A stretch of DNA of 42,141 nt from Terramyces sp. JEL0728 (taxonomy: Eukaryota; Chytridiomycota; Chytridiomycetes; Rhizophydiales; Terramycetaceae): assembly GCA_027603945.1 (NCBI GenBank), contig JADIIU010000111.1, positions 1 through 42,141 on the forward strand. Reading direction: 5' to 3'. The notes below the pieces were generated by a model that saw nothing but the letters and a program-made list of their open reading frames with translations, was not told the DNA's origin and did no database searches. The translations under genes were made by a program, and so were the position numbers. Shown piece after piece: positions 543 to 40,842 of the stretch (its first letter is position 1; each line of letters starts with the position of its first letter).

Positions 543-1610
543 ATGGCTAAACGAATTACGAAGAATGATATAAGTGGGCCGACCCCACTCCAAACGACAA
601 CTCAATATCTAAAGCAATCGTTCGATTCAGGAATTGATGTGCGCAGCGAAAACCAAAGAAAACAGGTCCAACCAAATAATTTCACTGGGGCTATTCCGTT
701 TGCAGTGGGAAGACATGATGTGTCTGTATCAGTTGCAGGCGGCCCTTACGATCCACGCAACAACGAATCAAAGGAACCAAAGACAATGACTTATATGCAA
801 TATCAAACATTTGTTCATGCAATCGGAGCTTACAAAAGACAGATTCAAGCAATGGCAGCGGCAACTGAAACATTTGTGCGAGCATTGCAAGAAGTCGCCG
901 ATTGTGTTCCTGCAGGTAATTGAGAATTAATGGCAGCGCAAGTTAACGATGTCAATGTCGTTTCCGATTTAGATTTTTTGATTGATTCATCTCAGCTTAT
1001 TGTTAATGCACACCAAACATGGGCCACCAACATTGAAAAGGAAGTAGAAGAACCACTAACGGCATGTTTGAATGAAATCCCCCAACTTGCAAAAACAAAG
1101 CAGGAAGCAAATAAACAGCAAATACAGAAATTGATCCAGCAGTTACATTCAGAAGAAGACTCCTCATACAAAATGAAAAAGAAAAAGACTAGAGATTTAG
1201 CGGAACTGCAAAAGGTACAATGATTTAACCCAGTCCCTTAATTTGAGGATGGCGCTTGCTGACGAAATCAAGAGATTATCGCTATATAATGAATGCATCC
1301 CAGACAAGTTATCACAAGAAAATGTGCCATTTATACTGCAGCTGCTGACCAAAACAGTTGAAGCGGAACTGGAAACTTACGAGACAGTATCCGAAGGCTT
1401 CCATAAAGTACTAATATTTAACCACAGATTGGTAGTGTGATGGACTCTAGATCGCCAGATGGCTTTCGTAATAGAAACTCTTTCTTTTCCAGCGGATCAA
1501 TTCATAACTTGAAAATTCCAGCAGAACCTAATACAGAGATACTCCCCACTTCGCCTGATAAAGAACTTAATATGGAATTTATACGAGCCGCTATGGCAAA
1601 CTTCTTGTAG
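543..1610 (+). CDS. I-BAR/Ivy1-like membrane-curvature protein
   Basis: Splicing exons 543-915, 937-1214, 1234-1407 and 1428-1610 gives 335 residues with no internal stop. The introns are 21, 19 and 20 nt long. Residues about 75-270 are predicted long helices. They include an alternating segment with an ALQEVADC motif and a charged coiled-coil stretch rich in Lys and Glu, as in IMD/I-BAR-type domains of fungal Ivy1-like proteins. Those proteins dimerise, bind acidic phospholipids and shape membranes. The last 60 residues are Ser/Pro-rich and probably disordered. The family call rests on general helical pattern and not on a signature motif, so another BAR-like family is possible. Confidence 0.6.
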
Positions 1611-1636
1611 TTTTAATTAAAAAGAATTTTTATATT

Positions 1637-2783
1637 TCAAGCAGTCACTTCATTTAATGGAAGTGGTGGTAATTCATCCGTCTTTGTCAGAAACAATCTT
1701 ACTTTTACGGTCACATCAATATGGGTTTCCTGAGGTTTTGCAGGGGTAGGTTCCATTGTAGCATGGCTTGAGTCAACTACAGATTGGTCTTGTTTTATTT
1801 CTGGATCAAATTTTACCAATGTATCTGTTGGATGTTCTGGAGCAATGTTTGTTTGCGATTGGACTTTGGCAGGAGCTTCATTTATTTGTTTATGTTCTAC
1901 TTCTTCAGGGTTTGCTGTAGCTGCTTCTGCTGGTTTGGATTCCACAATTGGTTCAGATGTAGGATGCGCTTCACGTTTTGATTCTGAGATTACAAGTTCT
2001 TTCAAAGCTGATTCTGCGGGTTCTTCCACAGGCTTTGAACTTTCTACCTGTTCTTGTGCATCAGCTGTAATTTCTTTTGGGGTTTCTTTGGTTGATTCAT
2101 GTTTGATTTCATCCAATTGTTTGGTGTCTGCCATTGCGTCAACTCCTGATTCAATAACAGGCTGTGCTTTAGATTCTTCTGCTGGAGCAGATTTACTCTC
2201 TTGGGTTTCTTTGGACGGTGTTTCCTAATGTCAATGGATTATCACCAATTCATCTCTGATTGCTTCCAGCTCTGGTTCTTTTGCGGATGGAATTTCCTAT
2301 CATAAGTAAACCTTACCATTGTGGTTTTCAATGGTGTTTCTGGTGGTGCTGAAATGCACTCGCTAGGCTGGGAATCCGTGTTTGTAGAAACTGAGTTTGA
2401 CTTTTCAACACATTGTTTGAAAGTAATTGCGTCTTGATAAATCTTTGATTACCGGCGGCATTAGCAAACCTGATTGCAATTAATTTTGGAGTGTTGTCTG
2501 TCAGGTCCTGCTTTACGTTATAAACCCATGAACGATCTGACCCTTCACTCATTACAAGAGTCAGGTTAGGGAATGCTACATCAATAATGGCTGTACTTGA
2601 ATGTGATAGCATTGGCAAATCGAGCTTTAAATCTGCCATAGTAACCGTGTTATTTTTGACAGCTACTTTGCCGGCACCTCTGTAAATCCATTCCGAGTTT
2701 GCCTGGTTAATATAAATATACTTTGTCAAAATGAAATAACTTAGCGGTACTTGATTAATATCGTATTACAGTTCGCAGTCCAT
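1637..2783 (-). CDS. Ran-binding (RanBD1) domain protein with acidic tail
   Basis: Six exons on the minus strand (2783-2770, 2749-2722, 2702-2453, 2432-2317, 2296-2246, 2224-1637) give 348 residues; the five introns are 20, 19, 20, 20 and 21 nt. The first 115 residues are a RanBD1 fold: AKLFHFDK, EWIYRGAGKV, the signature GSDRSWVYN, then AIRF and a closing DAITFKQCVEK helix. RanBD1 proteins bind Ran-GTP and help dissociate export complexes or stimulate GTP hydrolysis. The remaining 230 residues are low-complexity, rich in Glu, Pro, Ala and Lys, and lack FG repeats. The domain begins almost at residue 1, so the usual N-terminal arm is missing unless an upstream exon was overlooked. Ran itself lies at 32646-33357. 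Confidence 0.88.
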
Positions 2784-3065
2784 TATTTTGTAATTTTTCT
2801 ATCGTAATTTATACGTGGTTTGGCCGTGGATAGGACCAACAATCGGCCCTAATCATTACTCATGGAAGGAATGTGTTTCCACCTTGCGAAACCGTCTAAT
2901 CGTCACTAGAGCAGCTGTACCGAGAAGGTACCGCAGAATACTTATATCAAAAGCATAAATCTAATCGTGTAGCATTCGGGATCCATTCCAAGATTAAATT
3001 GACGGCTGGCTCGCTTAGCTGAAGTAAGCCTTGAATATTTTTTTTTGTTGTTGGAAAATCAAAAA
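2784..3065. promoter_or_regulatory. shared divergent promoter region
   Basis: These 282 bp separate the start codons of the RanBD1 gene (minus strand) and the RNA polymerase I subunit gene (plus strand), so they must contain both promoters. A T-rich run (about 3040-3048) precedes the polymerase start. No tRNA or other RNA gene was recognised. Confidence 0.45.
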
Positions 3066-6000
3066 ATGAATATATCAAACCCGGTTTCATCCAGTATACA
3101 GAAAGTTTCCTTTTCGTTTTACGAAACTCAGGATATTAAAAATTTTTCAGTTAAATCAATTACAAACCCACAAATTTTTGATACTCTCAATCATCCAACC
3201 ACAGGAGGTCTCTACGATCCTTGCCTTGGACCACATAACAAGGATACACTGTGTGGTACGTGTCAGCTGGACCACAAATCTTGCCCTGGCCACTTTGGAC
3301 ATGTCGATTTGACTGTACCGGTTTATAATCCAATCAACTTTAGACTCATGTACAAGCTGCTGCAATCAGCTTGCCATTACTGCCATCATTTCAGAGTATC
3401 TGACTTGGTAACTAGTTTATACGCTGGCAAGTTGCGCTTGATTCATGCAGGGCTATTGGTTGAAGCAAGTGATATAGATTCATTAATCGATGTTAAACCA
3501 AGAAAAAAGAGTGACGACGAAGAAGAGGAAGAAGACGATCAAGAAGATATTGCTGAAGGTCCGAAAGAAAGGATTTTGAAGCAAATTGACGAATACGTGA
3601 AAAATGCATTAGCAAAAGTTGATAAACACTTCATTAAGGTAATTGTTACTGATATAGACTACGTTAATTACTCAAACTCTACGCAAAGTTGAACGTCAGT
3701 ATCTCTCTGTTATTTCTGCACAGTCTTGCCAAAATTGTCATGGATATTCTCCAAAATTCAGAACTGAAGGAAATGTAAAGATTTTCGAAAAACCATTGAA
3801 TCCAAAGCAAAAATCCACAATGACGGCTAGAGGTTTGACTAGAGCCAAGTTGTTTGCAGATGCACCAACTATTGATGAAAAGAATATGCCGGACACAGAT
3901 GTTTACATTACACCATTGACTGTCAAGGCCCACTTGCAATTGCTATGGAAAAATGAAAAATATGTCCTTGATTTGCTATATGGGTCAAACAGAAAAGGCA
4001 TCCGTACTTCCAATCCAAATATGTTTTTCTTGGAAGTTGTAGCTGTTACTCCTTCCAAATTCCGCCCAGTCTCTGTTGTTGGAGACCAAATGTTTGAACA
4101 TCCTCAAAATATTTACTTGTCTGACATCATCAAAGCAAATATTCAAATCCAAGACATTTCGCAAATGGAGAAATCGTGGCAAGAAACCAATGCAAATGAA
4201 GATCCAAAATTGAAAGCCTTGAAGGCTGATGATTTCTTGAAAAGGAAGGTTGATGGATGGATCAAATTGCAGGAATCTGTAAACTACTTGATTGATTCAG
4301 ACAAAGCACCTGCTCCAAGTAAGCTTCAGAGCTAACAAATAGTGGGAAAGGTCGCGCCTCCAGGTGTGCGTCAGTTACTAGAAAAGAAAGAAGGCTTGTT
4401 TAGAAAGCATATGATGGGTAAGCGAGTCAACTATGCAGCGAGATCTGTTATTTCACCAGACCCTTATATCGAAACTAATGAAATTGGTATTCCACCGGTT
4501 TTTGCTAAAAAGTTGACATATCCAGAGCCGGTTATACCACACAATGTCAAGGAAATGCGTGCGTGCGTAATTAACGGTCCTGACATTTGGCCAGGTGCTA
4601 CTCATATTCAAAATGAAGACGGTACTTTGACATCATTGGGTGCTTTTGATATCGCTGGAAGAACCGCTTTGGCAAACCAACTCTTGACTCCTTCTTTACA
4701 AACCGGACATTCAAGCACTTGTAAACTTTCAATTAACAATAGCCCACCAATTCAAAAACACCAACAAAAAAGTTTATAGACATTTGCGCAATGGAGACTT
4801 TTTGTTGCTGAACAGACAGCCTACTCTGCACAAACCTTCTATCATGGCTCACACTGCCAGAGTGCTGCCAGGTGAAAGAACCATTAGAATGCATTATGCT
4901 AATTGCAACACCTATAATGCTGATTTTGACGGTGACGAAATGAACGCTCACTTTCCTCAGAACGAAATTGCTCGTGCTGAAGCTATGGTTATTGCTCGCA
5001 CTGATCAGCAATATTTGGTGCCTACTGATGGCGGTGTTTTAAGAGGTCTCATTCAAGATCATGTTGATGCTGGTGTGGATATGTGCTCTAGAGATTCTTT
5101 CTTCAAAAGAGAAGAATATATTCAATTGGTTTATGCCGGTCTTCGTGAAAGCAACTCTGCCGCTTCAATCGGGAACGGAAATATTGAAACCCCAATTGTA
5201 TTTGGTGTCGATGGTAGACTTATTTTGCAGCCTCCAACCATTTTGAAACCAGTTCCTAGATGGACTGGAAAACAAATTATTTCCACAATTCTCGATAATA
5301 TTACACCGCAGGACAGAAGTCGTTTGAATTTAATTTCCAAATCTAGAATCCCAGCCAAACAATGGGGACCGACGGCACCGGAAGAACAGCAGGTGATTAT
5401 TATGGATGGTGACTTGCTTACTGGTATCCTGGATAAATCCCAATTCGGCGCCAGTGGAAATGGGCTAGTACATGCCATTTATGAAGTATACGGACCTCCA
5501 TATGCAGGAAAACTGCTTTCAATACTTGGAAGACTATTCACAGCGTATTTACAGAGTGTTGGCTTCTCTTGTAGAATGGACGATTTGTTGCTTACACCTG
5601 AAGGCGACAAGGTCAGGAGAGATTTGATCAACAGCGCTTCAAAAATTGGTTACGAAGCATCTTCAGAATACGTAAACCAAAAGAATGTAAAGAATATCAA
5701 ACTGGGGCTAGAACTTGTGCTTCGAGATTCAGAAAAGATGGCTGGGTTAGATTCAGCTATGAAAACCAGAACCAACAAAGTTACTTCTGAAATTATCAGC
5801 TCTTGCGTTCCAGACTTGTTATATAAACCATTCCCTAGAAACAACATGCAAGTTATGACTGTTTCTGGTGCCAAGGGTTCGTCCGTTAACGTGTCCCAAA
5901 TTTCTTGTTTATTAGGGCAACAAGAGTTGGAGGGCAAAAGAGTCCCTACCATGGTTTCAGGGAAAACCTTGCCGTCATTCACTGCATTCGATACATCTGC

Positions 6001-8067
6001 AAGATCTGGTGGGTATATTACAGGACGTTTCTTGACTGGAATCAAACCTCAAGAATACTACTTCCATTGTATGGCTGGAAGAGAAGGTCTAATTGATACT
6101 GCTGTAAAAACCTCTCGCTCAGGTTATTTACAAAGATGCTTAATCAAACACTTGGAAGGTATTAGAGTCCACTATGATCAAACTGTTAGAGATTTAGATG
6201 GATCTATTTTACAATTCCACTACGGTGAAGATTCGCTTGATGTATGTAAACAAACAACTCTCAAGAAATTCGATTTTAATGCGCTCAACTATCATGCTTT
6301 AATTAGTCGTTACAATCCAGGAAGCATAGCAGACAAAGTTGAAGAAGACAAGGTCAGAAAGTTTGTCAAAAAGCACAAGAAGAAGGGCATTGAACACGAT
6401 CCAATTCTTTCTCTGTTCAGTCCAAGTAGATTTATTGGCGCTGTTTCTGAAGCATTTAAATCTAAATTGGATGACTATATCAAAAAGAACCCTTCCAAGT
6501 TAATTGCCGGATCCAACAGCGATAGACAAACTTGGTCTTGCCCATTGATCGAGCCAGATAGATTCAAGATGTTGATGAACCTAAAGTACATGCACTCCTT
6601 GGTGGAACCAGGTGAATCAGTTGGACTTTTGGCTGCCCAGTCCATTGGAGAACCTTCCACTCAGATGACATTGAATACTTTCCATTTTGCTGGATTTGGT
6701 GCTAAAAACGTTACTTTGGGTATCCCGCGTCTAAGAGAAATCATTATGACCGCATCATCCTCCATTAAAACTCCGCTGATGCGTTTGCCACTGAAGGACA
6801 ATGTCAGTGAAGCAAAAGGAAATGAATTATGTGAAGAAATCTCCAGATTGGTGCTGTCTCAAATTATGCAAAATGTAACTGTGACTGAAACCCTCGTTCC
6901 AAAGGTAATTTTCGTTAATTTCAGTCTTATTCTCAACCTAGAAGTAAATTATTAAAAATCAAATTGGAATTTTGGCACCAGAAACACTACAAGCTGCAAT
7001 ACAACATTACTATATCAAAATTGGCAGACATCTTGGAAAAATCATTCGTTCCTGCTCTTGAAAGAGCAATTTCTCGAGATTTGAAAGGGCGATTAAGGAA
7101 AGATGTAAATGACATTGAAAACATTGGCGTTGGAGTTGTCGAAAAAGCAGCACCGTCAAAGGGCGGTGATGAAGATGAACCAGCTGCTGAAAAGACTGTT
7201 GAAGAACAGTCAGATTCTGGGGAAGATACAGACAATGAAAATGATGGCGATGCTACCACGTCAAAAGGAAAAGCCAAGAGAAAGCAACAATCCACCTACG
7301 AAGAAGATGAAGAAGATCAAGAAAGATCAGACAATGAAGAAGCCGACGAAGCACAGGATGAGCAAGAAGATAGAATTGTCGACAGCTCCAAATATGTCTC
7401 TGGATTCAAGTTTGATAAAAGTACTGGACAGATTTGTGAAATTTCCGTAAAGGTAGCCTCGTTTAACCAAAGTTCCCTGCAGATACAAAGAAAATGCTGA
7501 TGGTCGCATTAGTAGAGTCTGTTTGTCAAAATGTGGTCATTCACCAAGTAAAAGACATTCAAAGATGCTTCCCACAGCCAAACGAATCAGAAAATGACAC
7601 TTCAGTAGGATCTATTTAATATTTAGGTAAATCTTGGCACTGAAGGCTGCAACCTTAGGGGAATGTGGGACTATTCAGATTATATCGACATTAGCAAAAT
7701 TTATACAAATGATATTTCTGCTATACTCAGAACTTATGGTGTTGAGGCAGCCCGGTCTGCAATCACCCAGGAAATTGCTTCCGTTTTCGGCGTTTATGGC
7801 ATTGACGTTGATCCAAGACATCTTTCCCTGATTGGTGACTACATGACCTTTGAAGGAGGGTACAAGCCGTTCAACAGAATGGGTATGGACTCTAATACTT
7901 CTCCGTTTACGCAAATGTCTTATGAAAGAACCACTCACTTCCTCAATACTGCAACTTTAACGGGAGATTTCGATCCGCTGGATTCGCCATCTGCTAGAAT
8001 AGCGCTGGGCAAGGTTGTCAAAGGTGGCACCGGATCTTTTGATGTTTTGCAGCCATTAATTCAATAA
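3066..8067 (+). CDS. RPA190: DNA-directed RNA polymerase I largest subunit
   Basis: Seven exons (3066-3638, 3658-4318, 4343-4720, 4743-6904, 6925-7452, 7473-7604, 7627-8067) give 1624 residues, close to the roughly 1660 of yeast Rpa190. Introns are 19, 24, 22, 20, 20 and 22 nt. The clamp zinc site (Cys 53, 63, 66, 73) is followed by an acidic loop and a second Cys pair ([11 protein letters not shown]). The catalytic loop [17 protein letters not shown] lies near residue 596 with all three Asp present. The bridge-helix/trigger-loop region [18 protein letters not shown] is near residue 1160. The long acidic insertion near residues 1335-1420 is typical of Pol I. The C-terminus [12 protein letters not shown] matches the family end. 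It synthesises pre-rRNA in the nucleolus. Confidence 0.97.
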
Positions 8068-11381: not shown

Positions 11382-14056
11382 ATGCTTGGATTGTTACTCA
11401 ATACTTTGTTTGTAGCTGTGGAAGCACAATCCATTTCAGACCCGCAAACTGTCAGCCAATATGCTTTTGATCCAGTATTTTGGGGAACAAAACTAAGAAA
11501 ATATGTCGATTGTCCTATTTCAAACGCACCAACTAATGTACCGTCAACTGTTCAAAGATGCCAATATCCTCGTACACCAATTCCTTCTGATCCAGATTTT
11601 CAAGGACGTGGATGGACCTGCGATCCTGGATTCTTTTGCCCAGGACAAACTGAAAAGTTTTCCTGTACTCCAGGCTTCTATTGTCCTGAGAATACTATGG
11701 AACCAATTTACTGTCCAAAAGGTTTCTTCTGCAGCAATGACACCAAAACTATCGAATACTGCCCAGTTGGTAATTACTTTTAATATCAGGTAAATTTTGT
11801 CCAACAGGGACACTAAAACCAAAGTTCTGTTTAACTTATTGTCCATTAGGTAGTTTCGAAGCCCCGCAATTTTCAGTAATTATCATCTTTTTGGTTGTCG
11901 CCTTGCTTGTTTATGGTTTCTATCACTGGAAAACAAAAGCAGATAGTATCAGAGAAGGAAAAAGAAAGGGTGAATTGGAACAAACTGCTGCTGCGGCCCG
12001 ATTCGCCAGAAATATGCAAGATAATTCGATGGACAAGTTGGAGCGCACTTTTGACATTGAATTTGAAAATCTCGGCTTAATGTTGCCATCAGGTGTTGAG
12101 ATTATGAAGGGAGTCACGGGTACTTTAAGAGCTGGTAGAACCTGCGCTATTATGGGTCCATCTGGTAATTTTCTTTTTTATTTTAGGCGCTGGTAAAACA
12201 ACTTTTGTTACTTTATTGACCGGCAAGGTCCCAAGAACTTCAGGAACTGTTAAGCTTAATGGGCAAGTTGATGAGCTTTCAAACTACAGCAAATTGATTG
12301 GTTATGTTCCGCAAGAAGATATTATGATCAGAGAACTGACAGTCAGAGATATTTTGATGCACTCTGCTCGTATGCGTCTCCCTTCATCATGGGAATACCA
12401 CAAGGTTAAAGCAAAGGTCAACAAGATTATTTCCTTCTTGGGGATGAAGCATGTTGCCAGCTCTATCATTGGTAACGAGGCTGAGAGAGGTATTTCAGGT
12501 GGGCAGCGTAAACGGTACATTCTTTGGCTAATAATAGTGTTAATATTGGTATGGAATTAGTTGCTGAACCATCTGTCTTGTTTTTGGACGAACCTACTTC
12601 TGGTCTAGATTCTTCAACTTCATTTGAAGTTTGCAAGAACTTGAGAGAAATTGCACAAAGCCAGGGGCTCACTGTTGGTGCTGTCATTCACTCCCCGTCC
12701 CCTGCTACCTTCCGTCAATTTGATGACTTTTTACTTTTAGGTAAAGGAGGTAGAGTTGTATACATTGGTCCTCGCGAAGATGCAATCAAATACTTTGACT
12801 ATATTGGTTTCGCTTGTCCGCCTGAAGAATCACCAAGTGATTTCTTCATGGATGTTGCTTCTGGTGTAGTTGCTTCACAATACGACCCTTCGTTTGAACC
12901 TTCGCACCTCTTTGAATACTGGGAAACCCGTCGCAGCTTCAAGTATGCTGGGGCTAGAAGAATGTCCCCTCAGGAAGCTAACCAAGCCCGTGAAAACTAT
13001 TTGCGTCAATCCAAACCTGAATTGTTCAACGACGATACTATAAAGAAACACAAAGCTCACGATTACTATGGGTTTACCAATTACATTGCTGTAGCCCTTG
13101 CCAGTATCCTCAAAGAAATCTGGGCCTTCCTCAGAGATATTTTGACTGAACTTGGACAAACCGTTACTGGGCTCTTTACCCAAGATAAAGTCAGAAAGAA
13201 TGCAAATATTTTCCTGCAAGGATGGTTCTGTATGAAGCGTGCTGTACATCAAGTTTACAGAAACTTTAACGCAACACTTGTCGATTTAGCGTTGAATTTT
13301 ACTGCTGGCCTGTTCATTTCTATTGCAATTCAAAAGTTTACATATCTTGGAGCTTCTCCCAACGAAATGTGTACATATGCACCTACAAATGTGGCATACC
13401 AATGCCAAGCAACTGTTGATACTATCCGACAGGCTGGTATGTTTATTGCTCTTGGCAGTTTGTTTGTTGGTATTTCCGTTGCTGGAAACACATTTGGATA
13501 CGAAAAAGTTGTGTACTGGAGAGACACTGCATCCGGCATGTCTGTAATTCCATATTATGTTGCAAAGGCATTGGTTGATGTTCCGCGTATCTTGATTGGC
13601 GCGTGTGTTTACTTTCTTTCCTTGATTACTTTCTTCCCGTATGCGCAAAAGTTTGGATTTTTGCTCTCTGTGGTTATTTGCTTGCACTTTTACGCATTCG
13701 CTTTAGGGTATGCGCTTTCAACTGCTGTTCCTTATTCCAAATTGGCAGTTTATGGCACTGGGTTCTCTCTGCTCTGGGCTCTTGTATTATCCGGTGTAGT
13801 TCCAGATTTATGGGATGTAAAGACTTCTTACCCTTCAGTTGTGCAATGGTTTTGGGAAATATCAGCACCAAGATGGGCAATTGAAGCAATTTGGATCAAG
13901 GAAGTCTCAGCAACTGGATTCAACCTCAAGACAGATCATTTCTACGACTTTGATGACTACAATCTCTGTATCACCAATATGATCAAAATCACATTGTGCT
14001 GGCACTTGTTGTCGATTCTAGGATTGAAATTGTTTGACAGATCTAAACAGAAATAA
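11382..14056 (+). CDS. ABCG-family transporter with Cys-rich ectodomain (Adp1/plant ABCG24-like)
   Basis: Exons 11382-11769, 11790-12164, 12187-12514 and 12538-14056 give 869 residues; introns are 20, 22 and 23 nt. A signal peptide is followed by a Cys-rich ectodomain with repeats such as PGFFCPG, PGFYCP and KGFFC (about 75-150). Next comes a membrane segment (SVIIIFLVVALLVYGF). The ATPase domain has Walker A GPSGAGKTT, signature GISGGQRKR and Walker B VLFLDEPTSGLDSST. The C-terminal half has about six membrane spans. This order (ectodomain, TM, ATPase, six TM) matches yeast Adp1 and plant ABCG24/28 half-transporters, which work as dimers. The second intron splits the Walker A codons, and the third lies in the signature motif. 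The substrate is not predictable. Confidence 0.93.
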
Positions 14057-17171: not shown

Positions 17172-18819
17172 ATGGATCCAAGTTTCGAATCGCTTCCATA
17201 CGAAATATCAAGTTTAATATTCACTTTCTTGTCACCAGAATCTGCTCAGATCTTTTCCCAATTGTCCAGATACTGCAACAAAATATCAACTGATTCAACC
17301 AACAGAGCAATCTTATTTTTAAAGCATTATGGAAAAGGGCAGGCGCTATATAATATCTATACTTATCACAGATCTATCCTGGAAGTCTCTCTGACTTTGA
17401 TAATGTTGAAAAACGGTGCACTGTTTCCAAGATTCCTTGCGCAACTATCGGTTCAAGATGTACTCTAAATGTAACGCTAGTTTCAATCGAAAACCCACAA
17501 CCCACCATCAACACCGCTCTACGTGTTTTTCGTCAACCAGGCGTTCAATACTTACAACGAACTCACAAACTTCAAACTCAACGTAATATAATTTAATATT
17601 AGGATCATCGTGAGTTTGAAAGATTAGTTAGAGCTCCAAATCCAAACGCCAAGGAAAACATTGACAAGTTAAAAACTCTGATTACTAAATTTGGATATTT
17701 CCCCACTCTAGATCAAAGCCATCGCATAGTAGCAGAATCATTGTACTTGCTCGGAAACATTGATCTAGTTCTTATTTCGGATTTGCAACGGTATACTGGA
17801 TTGGATGTAGCTGAATTCCAAGAAGGCGTGATGGATAGAGTTCTCGAGCATGCTGTATCTACAAAGTACGTTCAGAATTTCATTGATGTTGGGTTCAAAT
17901 TAACTGATCGCACTATCAAGAAAGGCATCGCTGGTGCCCGTCCAATAGTATTCGCAATTCTCGGCAGTCTTGTACCGAAAACTAAACTTAAACTATTGGC
18001 TGAAGATACAATTTATGAGTTGTTTGGTCCGTACCTGAACAGGGTAGAGTCATTGAATATCAGCTGGGACAGCACCGCTGTGCAACGTATTATCCACCAC
18101 TACAACATATCCGATGAAGCAATTGAGCGAGCATTATTGGATGATCCGAGTAAGACTTGTACAGACACCAAAGTCCATCCAAACTTTCCCGTCACAAGGC
18201 CGTACCTTAAATCTCGTCCATATTTTATTTGGAGTTGGATCCTTGATACTTATGGTCCACATCACCGTCTATCTAGTAATTCAAATTAACTATAGTTGCA
18301 TGCTTTGATGATGCTCTGAGTAGAGCAGTCGCCGACCAGACACTGCATGACTTGCTGGACAATTTCTTGGAGCAAGGCGTAGTGCTACGACCCAGACATG
18401 TAAAAATCTTGGCCTGCAGAGTGCTGCACCGTAACATGACCGCAAACGCTCTACAAATATTTATACATTTGAGAAAACAAGTACAGGAGCGTAGAAGGTT
18501 AGCAACAAGTAGGTTCAGTTCATCATTTGATGACATTACTCAAGTGCATGAGCCGGAATTACAGGGATTCTTGGAAGCTCTATACCGCGATATGTTGGCT
18601 AATGAAGACTGGAAACAAAAGTCTGGCACGATACAACTAGGCGGTGGGATAAATGGCGGGACATATCAGATTAGCAGAACACCGACAGACGTCCTGCGGT
18701 TTATCGATGTCGGCAAATCCATGATTCAAGATTTGGAGAGTTGGGGAATAACTTCCAAAGAGAATTTGCCAAAGAATGCGGTGGACGATGCTACTGTATT
18801 TTATCGAATCAAAACGTAA
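17172..18819 (+). CDS. F-box-like protein, 528 residues, function unknown
   Basis: Exons 17172-17459, 17481-17582, 17603-18275 and 18296-18819 give 528 residues; introns are 21, 20 and 20 nt. The N-terminus (LPYEISSLIFTFLSPES, then SRYCNKIS) resembles an F-box helix set, which would link it to Skp1 ubiquitin ligases. The rest is mostly helical with no repeat I can name. It includes RPYLKSRPYFIWSW, a pattern seen in large fungal families of F-box-like helical proteins. The ATG at 17172 places the F-box at residue 5. In-frame ATGs upstream at about 17106 and 17112 are possible alternatives. There is no signal peptide or membrane span. Confidence 0.75.
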
Positions 18820-22691: not shown

Positions 22692-22795
22692 TAAAGTGCT
22701 TTTGGATCTAGTTCTAGCCCCTCGAATTGAGAGATCAGTTTTGTTTTCAGGTGCCACACGATGCAGTCACGCCGAAAAATCTTTTTCAAAACAGG

Positions 22796-23880: not shown

Positions 23881-24140
23881 TTTGTTATATTACTATAAAC
23901 TATATTTTCGACCTTTTTATCCCTTTCGGCTGGCATTCTTGCGAGGTTTAAGCAACATCTGCTTCTTGAGAGACGGGATAAGCTGCCAGGCAATCCAACT
24001 CGGAAACCGTTAATTCCACCCCAAACTAGCGCTACATGAGCGCAACAACCGAATGTTTCAATCCAAACATTGCTCGTCTATTTATGCACACAAACCACGC
24101 GGTATTAAAAATTGACATCTCCGACGTGAGAACACTCTGC

Positions 24141-24148
24141 CATAAATA
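24141..24148 (+). promoter_or_regulatory. TATA-like box
   Basis: CATAAATA begins 33 bp before the ATG at 24174. This supports that ATG over the earlier in-frame one at 24036. Confidence 0.5.
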
Positions 24149-24173
24149 CATCATCGATTGGAATATTCCTTAT

Positions 24174-25079
24174 ATGATTCAACTTTTGTTTCAAACGGTA
24201 AACTCAATCCTCATACCTGTAAATGATCCACAGTGCTGGCAAACACCGACTGCAGATCTACTTGAAAACCACTACTACATCAAAACTAATAGCACAAGGA
24301 TAAAAAAGGGAATCGTGTACGCACCTGGTCCTGGATATGTCGTAAAGGACTATCCTACAGCCGGCTGTTTCCCCTCGCTAAACCAAAAAAACTCGTTCGC
24401 ATATTGGGACAACACTTCTTTCTACGACTACTGCGCAACCCCCGATTGCTCCGGAACTTGCTTATACATGGGTAAAATCACCACACAACCATGTAAAACA
24501 ACGTCAACAGTACAATCATTGACTATACAAACAATCAATATCGGGTTCTACACCGACACGCTCTGCAACTCGGATCCAATATACGAAATACTTGTACCGC
24601 TGTATGAGCAATGTACAACACTACAAAACTCTACGTACGTGAAATCTATTGTTGGAAATGAGGTTATTGAGCAGCAGCTTTGCACAGATGGTCTCTGCAC
24701 CAAGTGCGCTACTTCAACGACAACTGATGCATGGCAGCTACCTAACGACTGCACACTGGACCATATTTACGATGATATTACGTTGATGAAACGTGTGATA
24801 CAAACAATAGCTGCGACACCAACTGCAACAGCAACCACACATCCATCAACCGCGAATCAAAGCACAAGCAGTTCAATTTTATGGGTACTAACAGCGCTAA
24901 TAATCGTTCTGGTTATATGTCTGGTGATTCTGATTGCATTTTACTTTAAACCTAAATCTATTGAGCCAGACGACAGGATTTTAATGTTGGAACCAAATAC
25001 GTTCATGTCGGGACTGGACAGACCAACCTACCAAATGTACCTTGAATCAATAGATAACAACTATCTGATGAAGAAATAA
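24174..25079 (+). CDS. receptor-like single-pass membrane protein, array copy 3 (intronless)
   Basis: A single exon from 24174 gives 301 residues. The frame is open back to 24036, but the start MIQLLFQTVNSILIPVND aligns with the hydrophobic starts of copies 1 and 2 and sits 33 bp after a TATA-like box. The ectodomain keeps VNDPQCW, GCFPSLNQ, YDYCATPDCSGTC, VPLYEQCTTL and QLCTDGLCTKCATS. A Thr/Ser-rich stalk precedes the membrane span (ILWVLTALIIVLVICLVILI) and a tail with MSGLDRPTYQMYLESIDNN. The intron shared by copies 1 and 2 is cleanly absent here. The gene converges on the Trm3-like gene, with 41 bp between stops. Confidence 0.82.
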   Translation: MIQLLFQTVNSILIPVNDPQCWQTPTADLLENHYYIKTNSTRIKKGIVYAPGPGYVVKDYPTAGCFPSLNQKNSFAYWDNTSFYDYCATPDCSGTCLYMGKITTQPCKTTSTVQSLTIQTINIGFYTDTLCNSDPIYEILVPLYEQCTTLQNSTYVKSIVGNEVIEQQLCTDGLCTKCATSTTTDAWQLPNDCTLDHIYDDITLMKRVIQTIAATPTATATTHPSTANQSTSSSILWVLTALIIVLVICLVILIAFYFKPKSIEPDDRILMLEPNTFMSGLDRPTYQMYLESIDNNYLMKK

Positions 25080-25120: not shown

Positions 25121-28100
25121 TTACTTTTGAATGACTTGCTGTTTAACGTACTCCCATATTATCATTGATCCTGAGACATGTACGTTCAAGCTCCGAATCA
25201 GCCCATACTGAGGAATTTCGACAATATAGTCCATAAGTACCAACAGGGCTGGTGGTATACCTTCGCGTTCTTTGCCGAGCACAAGCACGCTCTTTTTAGG
25301 AAACTTGAATTTCTCTAGTGAGACAGAATGTGTCGCTTGTTCAACACCAATCAGGCTATACCCAGCTTGTTTAAGCTGAAGCAAGTACTCTGTTAAATCT
25401 GGGGTTTTGACTTGTTTGATTGGCATCCACTTGTCTGCCGAAACACAGCTTGCAATAAAGTTTGGATCTTTGAGTGCGTTTAGGTTATCCATTACTAGTA
25501 ATTCTGCATTGAAGGTTTCTAGAGTTCGACACAAACCACCGAGATTTGGCGCTTTTTCAATTAGCGACGCAACGACTACAAGCGGGTTGCGTCTTGCATT
25601 ATCCTGTTTTTGGGTGAAATCAAGATTGGTGATTTTCTCCCACGGTACAATCTTTTTCTGTAGGATATTAGTTTCAATCTCTACATGTTCCTTCTTTGTC
25701 CTCTCCTGCTTCAGCCGTTCACTCTTACTAGCTTCTACCCGTTTTCCCAATCTACCTTCATACCCAGACTTGACTCTACCATCCGGATCCATACGAATAA
25801 ACGCAGTGCAAGATATCCGTTCTTCATTATCCAATTCAAGTATTTCAATGACATTATTAAACAAAAATTCCAGGTTGAGATCTTTGAGCGCATGAAACCC
25901 ACTGGTAAAATAATAGTCACGACATTTTTGTAAATGCTTTTGTATGTCGTTATGATGATTGATATATTCTACTACAGTTTTAATATGCTCCTCTCCATCT
26001 TTCAACTCATTGTAAACAGTGGATATAATGTACTGCGCCATTACACGAATGTTGAAATGGTTGTTTGTTAGCCACGGATACAGAGTGTAAATCTATATTA
26101 GATCATTTGTACTTGCTCTGCAACGTAGATTTTCTCGCTAGTTGCATTAAATATCATCAATAAAATACTAAACAATGATCCAATAGTGTGTGCTCGTTGG
26201 CCATCTCTAACGAGCTCTATGATTTTAGGCAAATACAATTGCGTATTAGTAATAACTAATCGTGCAATAATCCATTCAATAAAGACCCTGGTCTGTGCAA
26301 TACTTTCCTTGATCATTAGTTTCAATAGTAGGTCAAGATCGGTAAAATCAGAGTCAAAAAGTAGATGGACTGACTGCCAAATACGTAAATTACGTTTATG
26401 CTCTTTGCTATTAATGAATTTTGCATTTTCTAGTTTGTTCAAAAGAGAGTAAATCAACATTGTATCATTTGTATTGTTTAGTATCGTGTTTGCTCGTATT
26501 CGCACAGTGTAGTCTAGGTTGTAAAAGTTCCATTCGGCTGTATCTTTAATTTCACTGATTTCATCGCTTGAAAAGAACGGCAACTTTTGTTTTAGTGCAA
26601 TCAAAGATTCATGTTTCTGGTCAAGAATATCCTGTTCTCTGGTTGGTCCATAAAGACACATTTCAACCAGGATATCCTTGTTTACACCGTGCATTTCTTT
26701 AGATGCTAGTGGAACAATCCCAAACCTGGTTTCGCCCCATTTCAGGTATCGATCCCACATTATCTTTTGTAACTCTGGCTTTTGAAAGGCTATTTTTGTA
26801 AATGTCTCCAAAAGAAATGGAAAATCCTTTGTTGTCCATGATTCGTCTATTATTCTAATCCCTATATCCAGAATAGTTTCCAATTGTTCAACAGTTAACG
26901 ATTGCTTGTAAATTGACCTGAACAAGTACCCAGCAGTGTACGAAGTACTCCCATCCAACAAATCAATCATTTCTTGGTACTCCAACTGCATAAACTCCAG
27001 CACCTTGTATTTGGTAATATTAAATTCTTTATCGCCAACAAGTTTCAATATAGATTTTGGAATTTCAATTTCAGGATTATGAATCAATCGATAGTACAGA
27101 CAATGCAAACCAACGTATTCAGGATAGTACTTGTTACCGACATTGATTTCCAACTGGTATTTATCAACAGTGCCAAAACATTCCTTGATAATTTCCAAAT
27201 CATTAGAATGCTGGATTTCATTCCTTACGAATTCTCTTAAATGCTGATTATTTGTTGATAGTTTCATCAATAAATACTTTTTCGGCTCATAAGGTGAGTT
27301 TAGTCTGTCAGTGGTAACTCCATAACGAGACAGAATTTCTATTCCTTGCTTTTCCGATTCAAATGGATTGGCTGCATTAATAAATTCTTTCATTATTTTT
27401 TGTATTTCGGTTTCTGGGAATTCAATTAGGCAGCCAGACAAGTGAATACACGCCAAATAAAGTGCAGTGTATTGTTTGTACAATTTCAGAATTGGTAAAA
27501 GTGCTTCTGCAAGGATCTGTTTCAAATTCAAGTGTTTAAAGAAATGCATATCCTTTTTCAGCAATAAATAAATATTTTGTAAATCATTTTCATCAATTTG
27601 TAATTCGATAGTAGATTCCGTAACGTAGGCTTTCAATCCTTCCAAGTAAAACAATACAGGAATTCTGGTCGTGATCAGTGGTAATACAGATAATACCATT
27701 TTCAAGTCTTTTAATCCGCAAACATAATTGGCAACTAAATCGCCAAATTCGCATTCAATATTGCTAGCTAGCATTTGGTAAAAAGCTGGTTTATCCAAAT
27801 AGATCAGCAGTTCCTTTTGGAACTCTTTGTCTTGTATATCCAAAGAAAGTATATGTTGGACTAGTCTTTTTCTAACAGGAAAAGAAGAGTTTTGTAATCC
27901 TATTTTAGTAGAAATTACCTTTTTTGAGGATAATTATATTCCACGGATGAGGAATCTCTTCCAATAATTTCAATTGAGGAATAATCAAGTGAATATATGG
28001 TTCTTGAATAGTTTCAAATAATATGAAAAAGTCATTCATTTCCGGTCGCAGTCTTTTCAATAGCAATAAGGCGTACTTGATTTCATTCTCATCCAGCAAT

Positions 28101-28638
28101 CCTTTCTAGTGTTAATTTATCCTTTTTAGGTTGGACAGAGGTAATACAACAGAAAGAAAAGAATACTTACTTGAATTAAAGATACAGTAGTGTCATTCCA
28201 CAAATCAATAGTAAACAGATCACACAACCTCAGCAATCCAAACAAATCATTCTCAACTTTTGCGTAAATAATCCCTTCATATTCCATCATTTGCGGATAA
28301 CAAAACGAAATAATCAGCTTTGTTGGTTCCAATTCCAGTATCTTTTCTTTATCCAGTAACGAAATGAATTTCAAGTTTTGTTTTGTCAGCACAAGCTTGT
28401 GTTTGAAAATAGGAGCTAGTAATTCCATGACTGTGAATGGCTGTCTGAACTCTTTATTTCCAGCAGCAATATCATCATTTTCATTGTTGAATGAATCAAA
28501 TATTGGCTCCAATAAAGGTAAAATATCCTTTTCTATTCCTCTACTAATAATCTCTTTTAAGACAAGTGTAATATCCTGATGATCAATCATAAGCCCAAGT
28601 AGTCTCTTTAATTCACCATCCGAGATGAACTTTTCCAT
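25121..28638 (-). CDS. TRM3: tRNA guanosine-2'-O-methyltransferase (Trm3/TARBP1 family)
   Basis: Exons 28638-28171, 28105-27919, 27899-26113 and 26092-25121 give 1137 residues; introns are 65, 19 and 20 nt. The first 950 residues are helical and HEAT-like, as in Trm3/TARBP1. The C-terminal 170 residues are a SPOUT (SpoU) methyltransferase: NLGGLCRTLETFNAELLV, VLVLGKEREGIPPALL and RSLNVHVSGSMIIWEY. These three motifs form the knot that binds S-adenosylmethionine. Family members methylate G18 in the tRNA D-loop. The protein is shorter than yeast Trm3 (about 1436). An in-frame ATG at 28698 would add 20 residues but would overlap the kinase gene by 52 bp. The 65-nt intron has a GTAAGT donor. Confidence 0.92.
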
Positions 28639-31509: not shown

Positions 31510-32222
31510 TCATTCAGCAGCAGCAGAAACAGACCCATAATCAGGAGTAACAATGGAAGACAAGAATTCAAGCTCTTTAAATTCTTTATCTTTTCTTTTC
31601 GTACTTTTAGGTCGTCCTCGTCGTTTATGCTCAACATCAACGCAATCGTCCTTTCCTAAATGCTTACATCGCTTACACGGGCGATTGGAATCGCATGCTA
31701 GATGTGCCTTCTTGCAATGTACGCAGGCTTTGCCGACATGCTTTGGCCGTTTTCTATTTGGCGAGTGTCTGTACTTTACAGTTTTCTCTATGACGGGCGA
31801 CGACTTTATTAGAGCAATTATACTATTTCACTTGGTACCGAAGGACATTCCTGGTTCAAGTAAGATCCTGGCGATACTAATTCCATGGCACCATTTGGAA
31901 ACCACAGGTTTGTTGAAAATCCAGAGTACTCTTCCATTGGATAGTATCTTTGCCATTCCTGCTGCTCATAGTTAGTATAATTTGGAAATGGAGGGCTATA
32001 ATACAACGAATTCTTTCCTGGGGTTTCAGGAAACCGTTCTTGTCTCTCTGGATTCAATTCTCTGGCTGTATCTTCCTTTATTGGCGAGTCATTCAGAGTT
32101 ATTCCCAGTTGGTTGTCCATAAATACCGATAATTGTAAGGATGAAGGGGTTACAGGGCTAGTGTAATCTAATTCAGATTCCATGTCCTTTTCGCGAGACG
32201 TAGAAGTGAATCTAAAAGACAT
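31510..32222 (-). CDS. Zn(II)2Cys6 zinc-cluster transcription factor with C-terminal DNA-binding domain
   Basis: Exons 32222-31824 and 31803-31510 give 230 residues across a 20-nt intron. The zinc cluster (about 160-187) reads CVHCKKAHLACD, then CKRCKHLGKDDC: six Cys spaced C-x2-C-x6-C-x5-C-x2-C-x7-C, which fits the fungal family. It is followed by HKRRGRPK, an AT-hook-like basic stretch. Residues 1-150 are rich in Pro, Ser, Glu and Tyr and likely disordered, perhaps an activation region. Most family members carry the cluster near the N-terminus; here it is near the C-terminus. There is no fungal-specific regulatory domain. The start codon lies 16 bp from the divergent gene's start. Confidence 0.85.
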
Positions 32223-32649: not shown

Positions 32650-33357
<708 letters not shown>

Positions 33358-33956: not shown

Positions 33957-35113
33957 ATGGAAAAAATTACTATCTGGAACTCACCATTGCAAATTCTCAA
34001 ATACTTTATGTTGTATTTATCAGACTCACTATTATCAATCGTCTTTAGATTATTTCAAAATGTAATCCAAGTTACAGTATTCCTTTCATTATTATTTGTC
34101 ATTTATATTTTATATTATACTGATGGTGGACACCAGGAGGTATTTTTCACTAATCGAAAGACGTTTCAAGTTGTAGAAGGGTTTTTGGTTTGGTACGGGT
34201 GGTGGGTTGGACTTGGTATAGCGTCCTCGGTCGGGTTAGGCACAGGATTACATACATTTGTGCTGTTTTTAGCACCATTGATAGTGCAAACCACAGTAAC
34301 GGCGTATTCGTGTCAGTCGCTTGACTTTAAGACGCATGGACACGATAGGTAATTTAATGCTAATATCAGCTTCATTTGCCCCGAAACCCAAGCCGGAAAT
34401 ATCACTATATTCAATATTTTTGGCAAAGTATTTCTCGAAACGACATTTTGGGGGATAGGCACTGCGATTGGAGAGCTACCGCCGTACTTTGTTGCCAGAG
34501 CAGGTATTGAGATTGTAACACAGCCGCGTTAGCAGGACAAGACGACCCAGAGTTTGCATCGATTGAAACTATACTAAAGAAAAAGATGAATGAACGAACA
34601 ATATACGAGAATCTACAGGTAATGATGCACAGCATGATGACAAATTTAGGGTTCTGGGGTATATTAATATGCGCATCAGTAATTTGCGTTAATGCAGGTT
34701 CCAAATCCACTGTTTGATCTGGCAGGAATAATGTGCGGACATTTTGGTGTTCCGTTTGTCACATTCTTTGGGGCAACTTTGATAGGAAAGGCTCTCTTCA
34801 AATGCAACATCCAAGGATTTTCAATGGTGGTCGTGTTCTCCAAAGATATCCTAGTGCTGATCAGGGAAACGCTGTCTGATAAAGCACCGGTTCTAAATGA
34901 AATGCTTGGGACGATATTGGACAAACTGGCCAATCAATACAGTACCACACCAGTAAATGTTGCTAACGATAGAATGAAACAGAGAAAAATACCAATTTCA
35001 TTGCGTTAGGCTGGAACACCTTTTTGATTGGAATGATTGTTTATTTCCTGTTATCCACTATCGAAGCACTTGCCGTATCTCATATGAAATTTCTAAGCAA
35101 AAAAACTAAATAG
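33957..35113 (+). CDS. VMP1: vacuole membrane protein 1 homologue (VMP1/TMEM49)
   Basis: Exons 33957-34348, 34370-34503, 34524-34678, 34698-34952 and 34973-35113 give 358 residues; introns are 21, 20, 19 and 20 nt. Signatures are [55 protein letters not shown] and [13 protein letters not shown]. This is a DedA/SNARE-associated core with several membrane spans. VMP1 is an ER lipid scramblase needed for autophagosome formation and ER contact sites in animals, plants and amoebae. The N-terminus begins directly at the family's IW..P..L motif, so it lacks the cytosolic extension of the animal protein. A last membrane span ([19 protein letters not shown]) precedes a Lys-rich end, KFLSKKTK, which could be an ER-retention-like signal. 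Confidence 0.93.
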
Positions 35114-35216: not shown

Positions 35217-37199
35217 CTACCCCATCTCCCTTACGAATTTGAGACGGTACTTTTTCCACAATTCCAACATGTCTTTCTTCAATTCGTACATGAGCATGTT
35301 CCTCCTTGTCATGCGTCTGCCTCCATCTTGAAAGTTGCCTTTAAATGTAACAAAGAAACTACATAGCAGCAGATGAGTATTTTGCATTTCTTTTATATTG
35401 AGGGCTCCAACACTTATGAAATCTTTGTTTTGGTTAGCAACAAATTCTTTTACTTTGCCTTCCAGCTCTGTCAGTACTTCATACGGAACCTCAACGTCTA
35501 TGTAAGAAATAATTACCGATTGTGAATGAGATTTCATCCGATTGATCTTGGGACCGTCTTATATTGCCAATTGGCTTTGACACCAGAGTCGCTGAAATTA
35601 GTGCAAATTACATGTTGGAACGTAGAGCTTTTGTCCATCACTGGTTCTTCTAAAGATTGTGGTTAATAAATGGATTTCTTCGACAATCATTGTGATTCCA
35701 TCAATCATAACCCTGTCTCCAATGTCATATGGATGGGTAACAAACAAGAATATGATACTTTCAAAGGTTGTTTTGGCTTGCGTTCCGAAAATGAAACTGA
35801 GAGCAATAATGATACTGGTGAATGGCAAAACTGTGCCCAAGTTGATTCCAAATATTGGCAGAGCGAATAGTCCAGTCAAGAGCAGGATAAATCCGTATAT
35901 AATCCGGTTCAAATTGCCTAAAGCTTGCGATACATCTCGCAGCGACTTTAGCAGATTCCTTCTTTCTTTATATATTTTTTTGATTCCCCTTCTTAGCGCT
36001 TTTTCATCAATGTATCCACAAGCATCATTGTCAAACAACGCAAAGGCTTCTTTTGCAGTGTCGATGTTTTCAAAACACTGATAAAAAGTTGCAATGGTGA
36101 TATCGTTGCTGTCGTTGAGTGATCGCCAGAGCTTTTTTGACAGATTGATTGCGTTCTTGTCTGAAATCAAACTCAGTGTTTTCATTGTTTTGCTGTAGCC
36201 TGATGACCCAATCTTGATTGAAGAGTCTTTGAACTCGCTATTTGATATCGAAGGTGCAACGTCAACTGGTGAACCGGATCCGTCCTTCTTTTCATCAGTT
36301 AACTCTCTTTCCAGTTTGGTGGTAGAATTGGATTTTAACACCGAGAGTTCCAAATCGATCTTTACATCAGGTTTGAAATTGACCCTTGGAGAATTTTGGT
36401 TGTTGTGACTTTCAAACATGGTAGCAAGCGCAAAATGTCTGATTGATAACTTTAACGTTTCTAATATTTTGTTTGATTTTTTAGATGCTTCGATTCTATC
36501 CGAATATGCTACATTGTGAAAGTTGATTGCTATTATTAACAAATTTCGTGCCTACAGATATGATAAACAACTTTTGCAGGAAAAGTAGTATGAATAATAC
36601 GGCAAACAGCATCAGCGTTTGGGCGAGTGCGAGCCAGTACGGAACTAGTAGGAATTGAGCAAAAAGAACAAAGTAGTACATTAATACAAACACTGAGCCA
36701 AATGCCACGGCCATATGATATTTCACACTCGGCAAATGGCCAAGATTAGTCCTCCACTTTTCACTGCATCCTCCGTATATTGCTGAAATGAATGCGACAC
36801 ACAACAGCGGAGCTATCTTTAGGAAATGCCAGAAAACCACGGTAGACATCCATGAAGCGCTCAACCACATGGACCTAGAATCAATAATAGTTACCATCGG
36901 ACCAGCTGTGGTTGAAACGCCAACTGTCCCTGGCTCATTAACCCATCATAATCCCAAATTAACAAGTTAGGTAGATTATTAACATTAATTTCAACCAAAT
37001 ATACAGCTGGAAAAGCCAATATACTTGAAACTATTATTCCATTGAAGAAAAAGGATGCCCATCCGCGATGTTTGCTGCAGCAGTATACTTTCTTTTTCTG
37101 CTTTGTGTCTGTGGTATCTGTTTGGTCTTCTGCTTCATATTCTGAATCATCATCCGTGAATTGTTCCTTTTCCTTCTCTGATTTAGCTTTCTTTGGCAT
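35217..37199 (-). CDS. MscS-family mechanosensitive channel with EF-hand-like motif (Msy1/Msy2-like)
   Basis: Exons 37199-36895, 36874-36552, 36529-35612, 35591-35517 and 35497-35217 give 633 residues. Introns are 20, 22 (GC-AG), 20 and 19 nt. A charged cytosolic N-terminus is followed by four or more membrane spans, a cytosolic segment with INFHNVAYSDRIE, an EF-hand-like FDNDACGYIDEKALRRGI, then the MscS pore helix and beta domain (FESIIFLFVTHPYDIGDRVM). Fission yeast Msy1/Msy2 share this order and act at the ER and nuclear envelope in Ca2+ responses to hypo-osmotic shock. The EF loop lacks the usual acidic residue at position 5 and Glu at position 12, so Ca2+ binding is doubtful. Confidence 0.92.
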
Positions 37200-37888: not shown

Positions 37889-37913
37889 TTGTGGATTTGA
37901 ATTTAGTTGCGGG

Positions 37914-37920
37914 TTTTATT
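37914..37920 (-). promoter_or_regulatory. TATA-like box
   Basis: AATAAAA on the minus strand begins 32 bp before the ATG at 37888. Confidence 0.45.
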
Positions 37921-38176
37921 TGAAAAGTTACGGATTACCACTGGACCCTTTGAAAGCATAAACTTTGCTTGATTGTAACGTAATTCGGTAATTGGAGTTT
38001 CAACAGCCAAAAAAGAATAGCCAGCAGCCATGAACAAACCATCTTTCCTCAATTACATTCTATTCTCCTTGGTTTATCAATGTCTGTAATCTTGAGCACA
38101 AAATCAGAATTTGCACATCACCAATTACCGTTCCCCCGAAAAAAAGCAGACACAGACATCAATGGGACAAATATAT

Positions 38177-40048: not shown

Positions 40049-40071
40049 TGTCGTTGTTTCAACTGCCAGCC

Positions 40072-40077
40072 TTTTAT
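40072..40077 (-). promoter_or_regulatory. TATA-like box
   Basis: ATAAAA (within GATAAAAG) on the minus strand begins 29 bp before the ATG at 40048. Confidence 0.45.
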
Positions 40078-40264
40078 CTGCACTTTGCGGTCAAGTTGGT
40101 TGGCAATGAACGTGTCAAGCCAATAGTCACTAGCGGGACTACCAACAATGAAATACCAAAGGATACCATCTCGCATTCACTCTAATTCCTTCATCTCAGC
40201 TTCCCGCCAGAGATGTTGCTGTTGCAGTGAAATAAAGTATCCACTAATGCTACAATCACTTTAT

Positions 40265-40842
40265 TCAACCATAAAACGGATCCCACTCTTCTTCACTATC
40301 CTGCGCTCTAATTTCTGCCCACTTCTTTTCTCTCTTCAGTCTCTCATACTCTACATCATCCGTTTCAAACTCTTGCCTACAAGAAGGACAAGTATTATGC
40401 TAAATTAAAGAAAAGGTACTAACTGAAGCCAAGGGACTATACATTCAGAGTGGTAGACATGCTTGCATGGCAGTACGTTTGAATCCTTTGTACAGGCTTC
40501 TAAACAAACTGAACAAGATGCTGGCGCAGAGTCTGTAAACGGTGGTAGAGTTTCAATGAATCTCTTTGAAGCTGGCGGAGTGCCTTTAACACTGAATTAA
40601 AACTAGATTACTTTGCACTGGCTTCTTGAAACAGCTGGTTGAGTATATCATCCAGTACTTGGTTTGATCCAGCTTGTCTGTCCCTCATTGATTCGAATAC
40701 TGATTGAACCATTTCGAAATTGATTTGCTGTTGCTCAGCCATGAATGCGGATACGTCTGGATTGATTAATTGAGTGCTGCTTCTTGTTTCCTGTATTCCA
40801 TGTTCGACTATTATTAACCCTGGTCTTACGAAAGTAGGACAT
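40265..40842 (-). CDS. RING-H2 E3 ubiquitin ligase (RNF181-like)
   Basis: Exons 40842-40830, 40807-40612, 40591-40420 and 40399-40265 give 171 residues; introns are 22, 20 and 20 nt. The N-terminus MSYFVEHGIQETRSS resembles the start of RNF181. The RING-H2 domain runs from CSVCLEACTK through LPCKHVYHSECIVPWLQ to CPSCRQEF, with all eight zinc ligands present. PASKRFIETLPPF precedes the RING, as in the RNF115/126/181 group. The tail is charged and ends in EEEWDPFYG. It should transfer ubiquitin from an E2; the substrate is unknown. The first exon is only 13 nt of coding sequence. Confidence 0.9.

Follow-up and report, generated by a model that had tools for sequence, protein, structure and literature searches.

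How little does an intron need? The question is raised by the genes of Terramyces sp. JEL0728, a fungus of the Chytridiomycota (Rhizophydiales, Terramycetaceae), which appear to be interrupted mostly by introns of about 20 nt that are among the shortest known and so put this lower limit to the test. Our window was a whole contig of 42,141 bp (C111; JADIIU010000111.1) from an assembly of 15,016,339 bp in 231 contigs. Evidence from this contig and from a wider sample of the genome suggests that these are U2-type spliceosomal introns reduced to a fixed minimal frame, a reading to which we give a probability of about 0.92. Ultrashort introns had already been described in ciliates, in relict nuclei and in a handful of other groups; here they appear in a fungus, a member of a kingdom with rich splicing genetics, with strong signals whose distances are fixed and with SF1 and U2AF both intact.

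Intron lengths and controls

The parsed sample combined the window with twenty 10-kb pieces taken from contigs C1–C20, 242,141 bp in total (~1.6% of the assembly); both strands were read, with a codon model whose training set was 50 long open frames totalling 75,927 bp. A flat-prior parse, which demanded nothing but GT..AG and charged every intron between 10 and 150 nt the same cost, is free of bias from motif seeding; 50 of its 160 calls fell at 19–22 nt, whereas five control pairs of ends put 4 of 163, 4 of 141, 7 of 138, 7 of 137 and 14 of 129 calls there. Control calls were scattered over all lengths, apart from a bump in one pair that is weighed below. A second peak at 50–100 nt was sought and rejected, GT-AG calls of 25–120 nt being no more numerous than those of three control pairs. 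A count of distances in the window agreed: GTA stood at distance 20 from TAAY-AG in nine pairs with two bases between TAAY and AG and in nine with three, where shuffling predicted 0.4 and 0.8.

In a weighted parse, donor and branch weights were learned from the first set with the length prior still flat, and the parse was then retrained. The first weighted parse made 271 calls, 203 of them of 18–24 nt, and found, outside the window, between 3 and 19 introns of 17–25 nt in every one of the 20 pieces, whereas the reversed-motif control run beside it made 119 calls with 10 in the 18–24 nt range. Retraining gave 290 calls, including 225 of 18–24 nt (3 of 18, 57 of 19, 100 of 20, 41 of 21, 18 of 22, 2 of 23 and 4 of 24 nt), a narrow dominant length below about 30 nt as in lineages with ultrashort introns. 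If the sample is typical, 225 per 242 kb would extrapolate to some 14,000 tiny introns in the assembly. Paramecium introns are depleted in lengths divisible by three; no such depletion was obvious here, where 41 of the 225 measured 21 nt, and an in-frame stop lay in 36 of those 41, a kind of intron that the parser favours.

Within the window, the retrained parse, with its flat length prior, called 53 introns (32 of 18–24 nt), and a parse confined to 17–26 nt called 42 (6 of 19, 20 of 20, 7 of 21, 5 of 22, 2 of 23, 1 of 24 and 1 of 26 nt), 41 of which sit in genes given with coordinates. A preliminary description of this DNA had counted 44 introns of 19–24 nt (8, 21, 7, 6, 1 and 1 for the successive lengths), a claim upheld by this comparable number, by the controls and by homology. 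A gene finder that chooses GT..AG pairs at will can bridge frame breaks, and ours does make many doubtful calls, with wrong ends alone yielding 129–163; such an artefact is nevertheless very improbable given that the strong peak at 19–22 nt belongs to GT..AG only, that wrong-end calls are spread over lengths and that those members tested were confirmed by homology. A gain test was of low power: 11 of 86 GT-AG introns of 17–24 nt gained at least 3, neighbouring junctions probably scoring alike.

Conserved proteins across splice sites

Removal of the short segments restored conserved proteins in Ran, D-2-hydroxyglutarate dehydrogenase, RNA polymerase I largest subunit (RPA190) and U2AF35. Ran, on the reverse strand, is cut before Walker A (22 nt, 33299–33320), within WDTAGQ (21 nt, 33127–33147) and once more downstream (21 nt, 32794–32814), and its spliced product was gap-free to PDB 5ytb_A over query residues 7–212. 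The three parsed short introns of D-2-hydroxyglutarate dehydrogenase, also on the reverse strand (19 nt, 20340–20358; 20 nt, 21026–21045; 20 nt, 21216–21235), left no break in the alignment with PDB 6lpn_A, and all four introns of U2AF35 were gap-free against U2AF 23 kDa (4yh8_A). The RPA190 gene, recognised by parse and homology at 3066–8067 of the forward strand, holds six tiny introns of 19 (3639–3657), 24 (4319–4342), 22 (4721–4742), 20 (6905–6924), 20 (7453–7472) and 22 nt (7605–7626), the last two of low motif score; all six sites were unbroken against the protein of Boothiomyces sp. JEL0838, itself a public prediction. The best match of our spliced protein was HDV01_000743 from Terramyces sp. 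JEL0728, which agrees with our splice at three of the six sites (the first, third and fourth).

Domain matches extended these results to further genes. In an ABCG transporter on the forward strand, two of three introns, one within Walker A (22 nt, 12165–12186) and one right after the SGGQ signature (23 nt, 12515–12537), lie inside one complete ABC_tran match (2–137 of 137); the remaining one (20 nt, 11770–11789) was called by the parse. One intron each was spanned in an MscS-like channel, where splicing out 35592–35611 (20 nt, reverse strand) lengthened the MS_channel_2nd match from 10–56 to 10–68 of 68, and in a RING protein, where zf-RING_2 (2–44 of 44) runs across 40400–40419 (20 nt, reverse strand). 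The parse placed a further intron in the channel gene (19 nt, 35498–35516) and two in the RING gene (20 nt, 40592–40611; 22 nt, 40808–40829). Matches below their cut-offs spanned two introns of a VTT-domain gene on the forward strand (20 nt, 34504–34523, of low motif score; 19 nt, 34679–34697), which has two more by parse (21 nt, 34349–34369; 20 nt, 34953–34972), and one in a RanBP1-like gene on the reverse strand (20 nt, 2433–2452; Ran_BP1).

Errors of sequencing or assembly can mimic frame breaks, and the assembly is a draft in 231 contigs. Such errors would have to create, within segments of 18–24 nt, a donor, a branch motif and an acceptor at constant distances, restore conserved proteins once those segments are left out, and leave all six RPA190 sites to be read across by a Boothiomyces protein from another assembly; we regard this explanation as close to negligible.

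Where the second Ran intron lies in Terramyces, the public Ran of Entophlyctis helioformis carries two additional residues, perhaps from a mis-set intron border. Among the best 120 of 7966 Ran matches (clustered at 90%, many unnamed), no Boothiomyces, Terramyces or Kappamyces name was found. An intronless nucleoside transporter gene of the window shares 86% identity with Boothiomyces sp. JEL0866 and 57% with Kappamyces sp. JEL0829, and its matches include two Boothiomyces proteins and one from Kappamyces near the top. The Ran models of Boothiomyces, Terramyces and Kappamyces may be broken by tiny introns.

Splice signals and their spacing

The 225 short introns share a donor with consensus beyond GT (+3A 0.94, +4A 0.64, +5T 0.49, +6T 0.52; −1G 0.51), most often GTAATT (40), GTAATA (21) or GTAAAT (16). 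Bases +5 to +9 are T-rich (0.41–0.52) and stand upstream of the branch point, whose motif is yTAAy (from weights seeded with yTAAy). The branch A falls at +14 in 109 and at +15 in 86 (195 of 225 together). Its distance to the intron end is 5 nt in 109 introns and 6 nt in another 100 (209 of 225), so that a frame of 14–15 nt from donor to branch A plus a tail of 5–6 nt accounts for most lengths. The acceptor is yAG, usually separated from the branch motif by two or three bases. The preliminary description was right to place the branch motif near the AG without a pyrimidine tract downstream; the T-rich bases are those upstream of the branch.

These features are those of U2-type introns: GT-AG (or GC-AG) ends with an extended donor consensus, and a branch motif that fits GUAGUA, the element kept intact in the U2 small nuclear RNA (snRNA). 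U12-type introns have an rTATCC donor and a TCCTTAAC-like branch; no U12-type donor was present among the 25 commonest donors of the 225, rarer donors and minor snRNAs not having been looked for. Nor do the introns belong with the degenerate-signal class that, in the account of PMC2483917, lacks a branch signature, as yTAAy occurs here at a fixed position. Removal outside the spliceosome, either by DNA elimination like that of ciliate internal eliminated sequences or by an unusual RNA excision, is hard to reconcile with GT/GC..AG ends and a branch motif matched to U2, with the spliceosomal factors that the genome encodes, and with the presence of a longer intron whose ends are of the same type; we consider it highly unlikely.

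Splicing machinery

The preliminary description had hinted at losses in U2, U2AF or SF1 that would fit such introns, an expectation contradicted by the assembly, in which U2 snRNA, SF1, U2AF65 and U2AF35 are all present. U2 snRNA gave a match of 140.2 bits with the branch-binding GUAGUA intact, and SF1 matched Splicing factor 1 in the PDB at 1.1e-81. U2AF65 was recognised in one piece by TIGR01642 at 251.7 bits, short of the cut-off of 310.3 probably because introns split the gene, and matched PDB U2AF65 over residues 108–304 and 337–432. The genome retains the genes for these protein readers of the 3′ end, and introns of 19–22 nt interrupt those genes too: 19, 21 (GC-AG) and 20 nt in SF1, 20, 20, 19 and 19 nt in U2AF65, and 22 (GC-AG), 19, 19 and 19 nt in U2AF35, where the last two were placed by the parser and the first two by eye.

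Searches for U1 and U6 gave a different outcome. U1 had no Rfam match in the assembly. For an altered U1 5′ end fitting GTAATT, the pattern ATAMTTACCTGG returned 11 matches, all ATAATTACCTGG (three for the reversed pattern); none was U1-like by eye, and an opposite-strand CCAG/GTAATTAT donor spells the same letters. U6 gave no Rfam match over the cut-off and none by two core patterns or a consensus BLAST, an empty result that is uninformative. One U6 candidate in the window (34941–35045) was rejected, scoring 26.9 bits against a Rfam cut-off of 44 without keeping the U6 core; it sits in the predicted VTT-domain gene and contains the intron at 34953–34972. A near-identical copy of that segment on contig C199 (L032, 1501–1606) probably makes it a repeated coding segment.

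Longer introns and GC-AG introns

The claim that introns are sharply fixed at about 20 nt holds for the main class, not for all: longer introns and GC-AG introns, both overlooked in the preliminary description, exist as well. A homology-backed intron of 78 nt, GTAAGT..CTAACAATAG, lies in D-2-hydroxyglutarate dehydrogenase (20536–20613, reverse strand); leaving it out raised the match to 6lpn_A from 517.0 to 534.6 bits, with one single-residue alignment gap a few residues downstream of the junction. A candidate of 65 nt with a GTAAGT donor (28106–28170, reverse strand) comes from the gene parse only. Both credited long introns of the window thus carry GTAAGT, against 9 of the 225 tiny ones, which may mean that the donor has to be stronger once the spacing is lost, though two cases prove nothing. 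GC-AG ends occur in the 21-nt intron of SF1 and the 22-nt intron of U2AF35, and across the 242 kb GC donors gave five calls of 18–24 nt, where six other donor pairs were tried and none had more than one. One intron of the window is ambiguous, either 26 nt with GT-AG or 22 nt with GC-AG (36530–36555, reverse strand, by parse).

Weighing the evidence

Several points count against the interpretation of these segments as minimal U2-type introns. Removal of the segments from RNA is a prediction from DNA sequence. The weights of the retrained parse were learned from calls of 18–24 nt seeded with yTAAy, and the motif logos lean that way; the donor is weak at +5, with G at 0.18. The control with 14 of 129 calls at 19–22 nt, AG..GT, itself rises slightly at 19–20 nt, presumably because the same introns were called there with displaced ends (an exon AG before the GT). 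Of the 290 retrained calls, the remaining 65 are a single 12-nt intron and 64 that span 26–150 nt; the median motif score of the latter (−1.5) is below that of the 225 short calls (0.0) but above that of the reversed control's long calls (−3.3), so that these 64 would mix false calls with real long introns. For the middle intron of SF1 the parser gave a 63-nt GT-AG intron, and the 21-nt GC-AG intron was read by eye, chosen because it restores a conserved stretch; near this junction the alignment with the branchpoint-bridging protein 4wan_A then has no gap. HDV01_000743 departs from our RPA190 splice at the second, fifth and sixth introns, where residues are absent; at 1567 aa against 1624 aa it is 57 shorter, with gaps at three tiny introns, and is probably an annotation error. 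Finally, the snRNA searches, which covered U1, U2 and U6, found neither U1 nor U6, genes that the assembly may lack.

A minimal frame and its possible recognition

On the spliceosomal reading, the minimal frame would run from a GTAATT-like donor through a few U-rich bases to yTAAy, with its A at +14 or +15, and then over two or three bases to yAG. Removal would proceed by intron definition, the whole being one short unit in which spacing is itself a recognition signal, and the predicted lariat would have a loop of 14–15 nt and a tail of 5–6 nt. As a rule only two or three bases part the branch motif from the AG, too few to accommodate U2AF65, which leaves the T-rich stretch upstream of the branch as its sole candidate site inside the intron; U2AF65 may accordingly touch those U-rich bases or matter mainly for long introns. 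U6 would hold intron bases +4 to +6. Few bases would be left between these and the branch helix, so that the early factors could hardly all be seated together, and a stepwise hand-over is the simplest guess.

The second of these roles for U2AF leads to a sub-case of the spliceosomal reading, in which a factor like SPF45/RBM17 recognises the tiny introns free of U2AF, the latter serving mainly the long ones. SPF45/RBM17 is reported to replace U2AF on some human short introns (PMC8363638), and both the lack of a pyrimidine tract after the branch point and the confinement of GTAAGT to 9 of 225 tiny introns, when both credited long ones carry it, would fit. Yet U2AF65 and U2AF35 are kept, and of seven G-patch loci none of the five inspected looked SPF45-like when judged by eye on family features; we think this sub-case rather unlikely. 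We would offer a second proposal more tentatively still: that an intact SF1–U2AF65–U2AF35 set reads the 3′ splice site in a compressed or inverted order, with U2AF65 upstream of the branch, spacing in place of donor strength (+5G being mostly lost), and U1 and U6 perhaps changed to match GTAATT, perhaps across the family. If U1 and U6 have co-evolved with GTAATT, a U1 start of AUAAUUACCUG or an altered U6 ACAGA box would fit. To our knowledge, no such splice-site recognition is known in a free-living fungus. Minimal spliceosomal introns of this kind would be a test case for the smallest substrate of a spliceosome: can SF1, U2AF and U1 stand together on 20 nt, and does spacing or motif drive recognition?

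Comparison with other ultrashort introns

The preliminary description had likened these introns to those of Paramecium, Stentor and chlorarachniophyte nucleomorphs, a comparison that stands for size with Stentor and Bigelowiella and fails for the branch signature, lacking in Paramecium and the nucleomorph and strong here. Stentor coeruleus, whose introns measure 15–16 nt (PMC9505925), has near-fixed lengths, a branch A that is almost always at one or two positions (10 or 11, against 14 or 15 in Terramyces), a tail of about 5 nt and a conserved U2 GUAGUA. It differs in a branch region that, as that source describes it, has no strong consensus where yTAAy is strong in Terramyces, in a lariat loop of 10–11 nt against a predicted 14–15 nt, and in the finding of all major snRNAs, whereas U1 and U6 were not found in the Terramyces assembly. 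The nucleomorph of Bigelowiella natans resembles Terramyces in lengths of about 19 nt and in many introns, and Paramecium in short introns and many per genome (PMC2483917, PMC12862383). According to the first of these sources, P. tetraurelia, the B. natans nucleomorph and dicyemids have no branch-point signature, and 5′ sites in the nucleomorph are largely GT(A), whereas both signals are readable in Terramyces and its branch motif is fixed. The nucleomorph is moreover a relict nucleus and Terramyces a 15-Mb fungal genome.

Yarrowia lipolytica shares with Terramyces a branch point close beside the AG, but its intron bodies are long. Its branch consensus is ACTAAC (PMC2483917). Closer in size, the microsporidian Encephalitozoon cuniculi, a fungal relative, has short introns with a TAAYTT branch motif, but it is an intron-poor parasite with 13 introns of mean 35.8 nt (PMC2483917), against 225 sampled near 20 nt in Terramyces. 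Type B introns of Trichomonas vaginalis (23 nt and up; PMC12316389) are likewise very short; their motifs can be read and the rest of the intron is poly-T, but 24 are reported in an intron-poor genome, whereas in Terramyces the tiny introns are the main class. A fungal survey that had two Chytridiomycota in its reconstruction called a mean of 63 bp relatively short (PMC8476143), and a pan-eukaryotic survey left out introns of <30 bp (PMC10639083); surveys with such an exclusion are blind to genomes like that of Terramyces. Among the matches listed for the open-licence PMC literature we recognised no description of these introns, which is weak evidence of absence; the pattern appears undescribed, although the sequence fact appears to be partly in deposited data already, HDV01_000743 reading across some of the introns.

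Further introns and minor observations in the sample

The other calls of the window lie in genes for which the parse is the evidence. On the forward strand these are introns of 21 (916–936), 19 (1215–1233) and 20 nt (1408–1427) from the retrained parse, others of 21 (17460–17480), 20 (17583–17602) and 20 nt (18276–18295), and two of 20 nt each (22128–22147 and 23251–23270). Reverse-strand introns were placed in a SPOUT methyltransferase gene (20 nt, 26093–26112; 19 nt, 27900–27918) and at 36875–36894 (20 nt). Low motif scores mark four further reverse-strand calls, namely candidates of 20 nt at 31804–31823 and 2297–2316 and of 21 nt at 2225–2245, and a doubtful candidate of 21 nt at 1682–1702.

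Contig C62 carries two near-identical copies (L051 and L052) about 5.1 kb apart over ~270 bases, a recent duplication or a mobile element. In the window, 21751–25079 encodes three adjacent membrane proteins, predicted and rich in cysteine. All three have a PQCW motif towards the N terminus, and by eye they look like tandem relatives.

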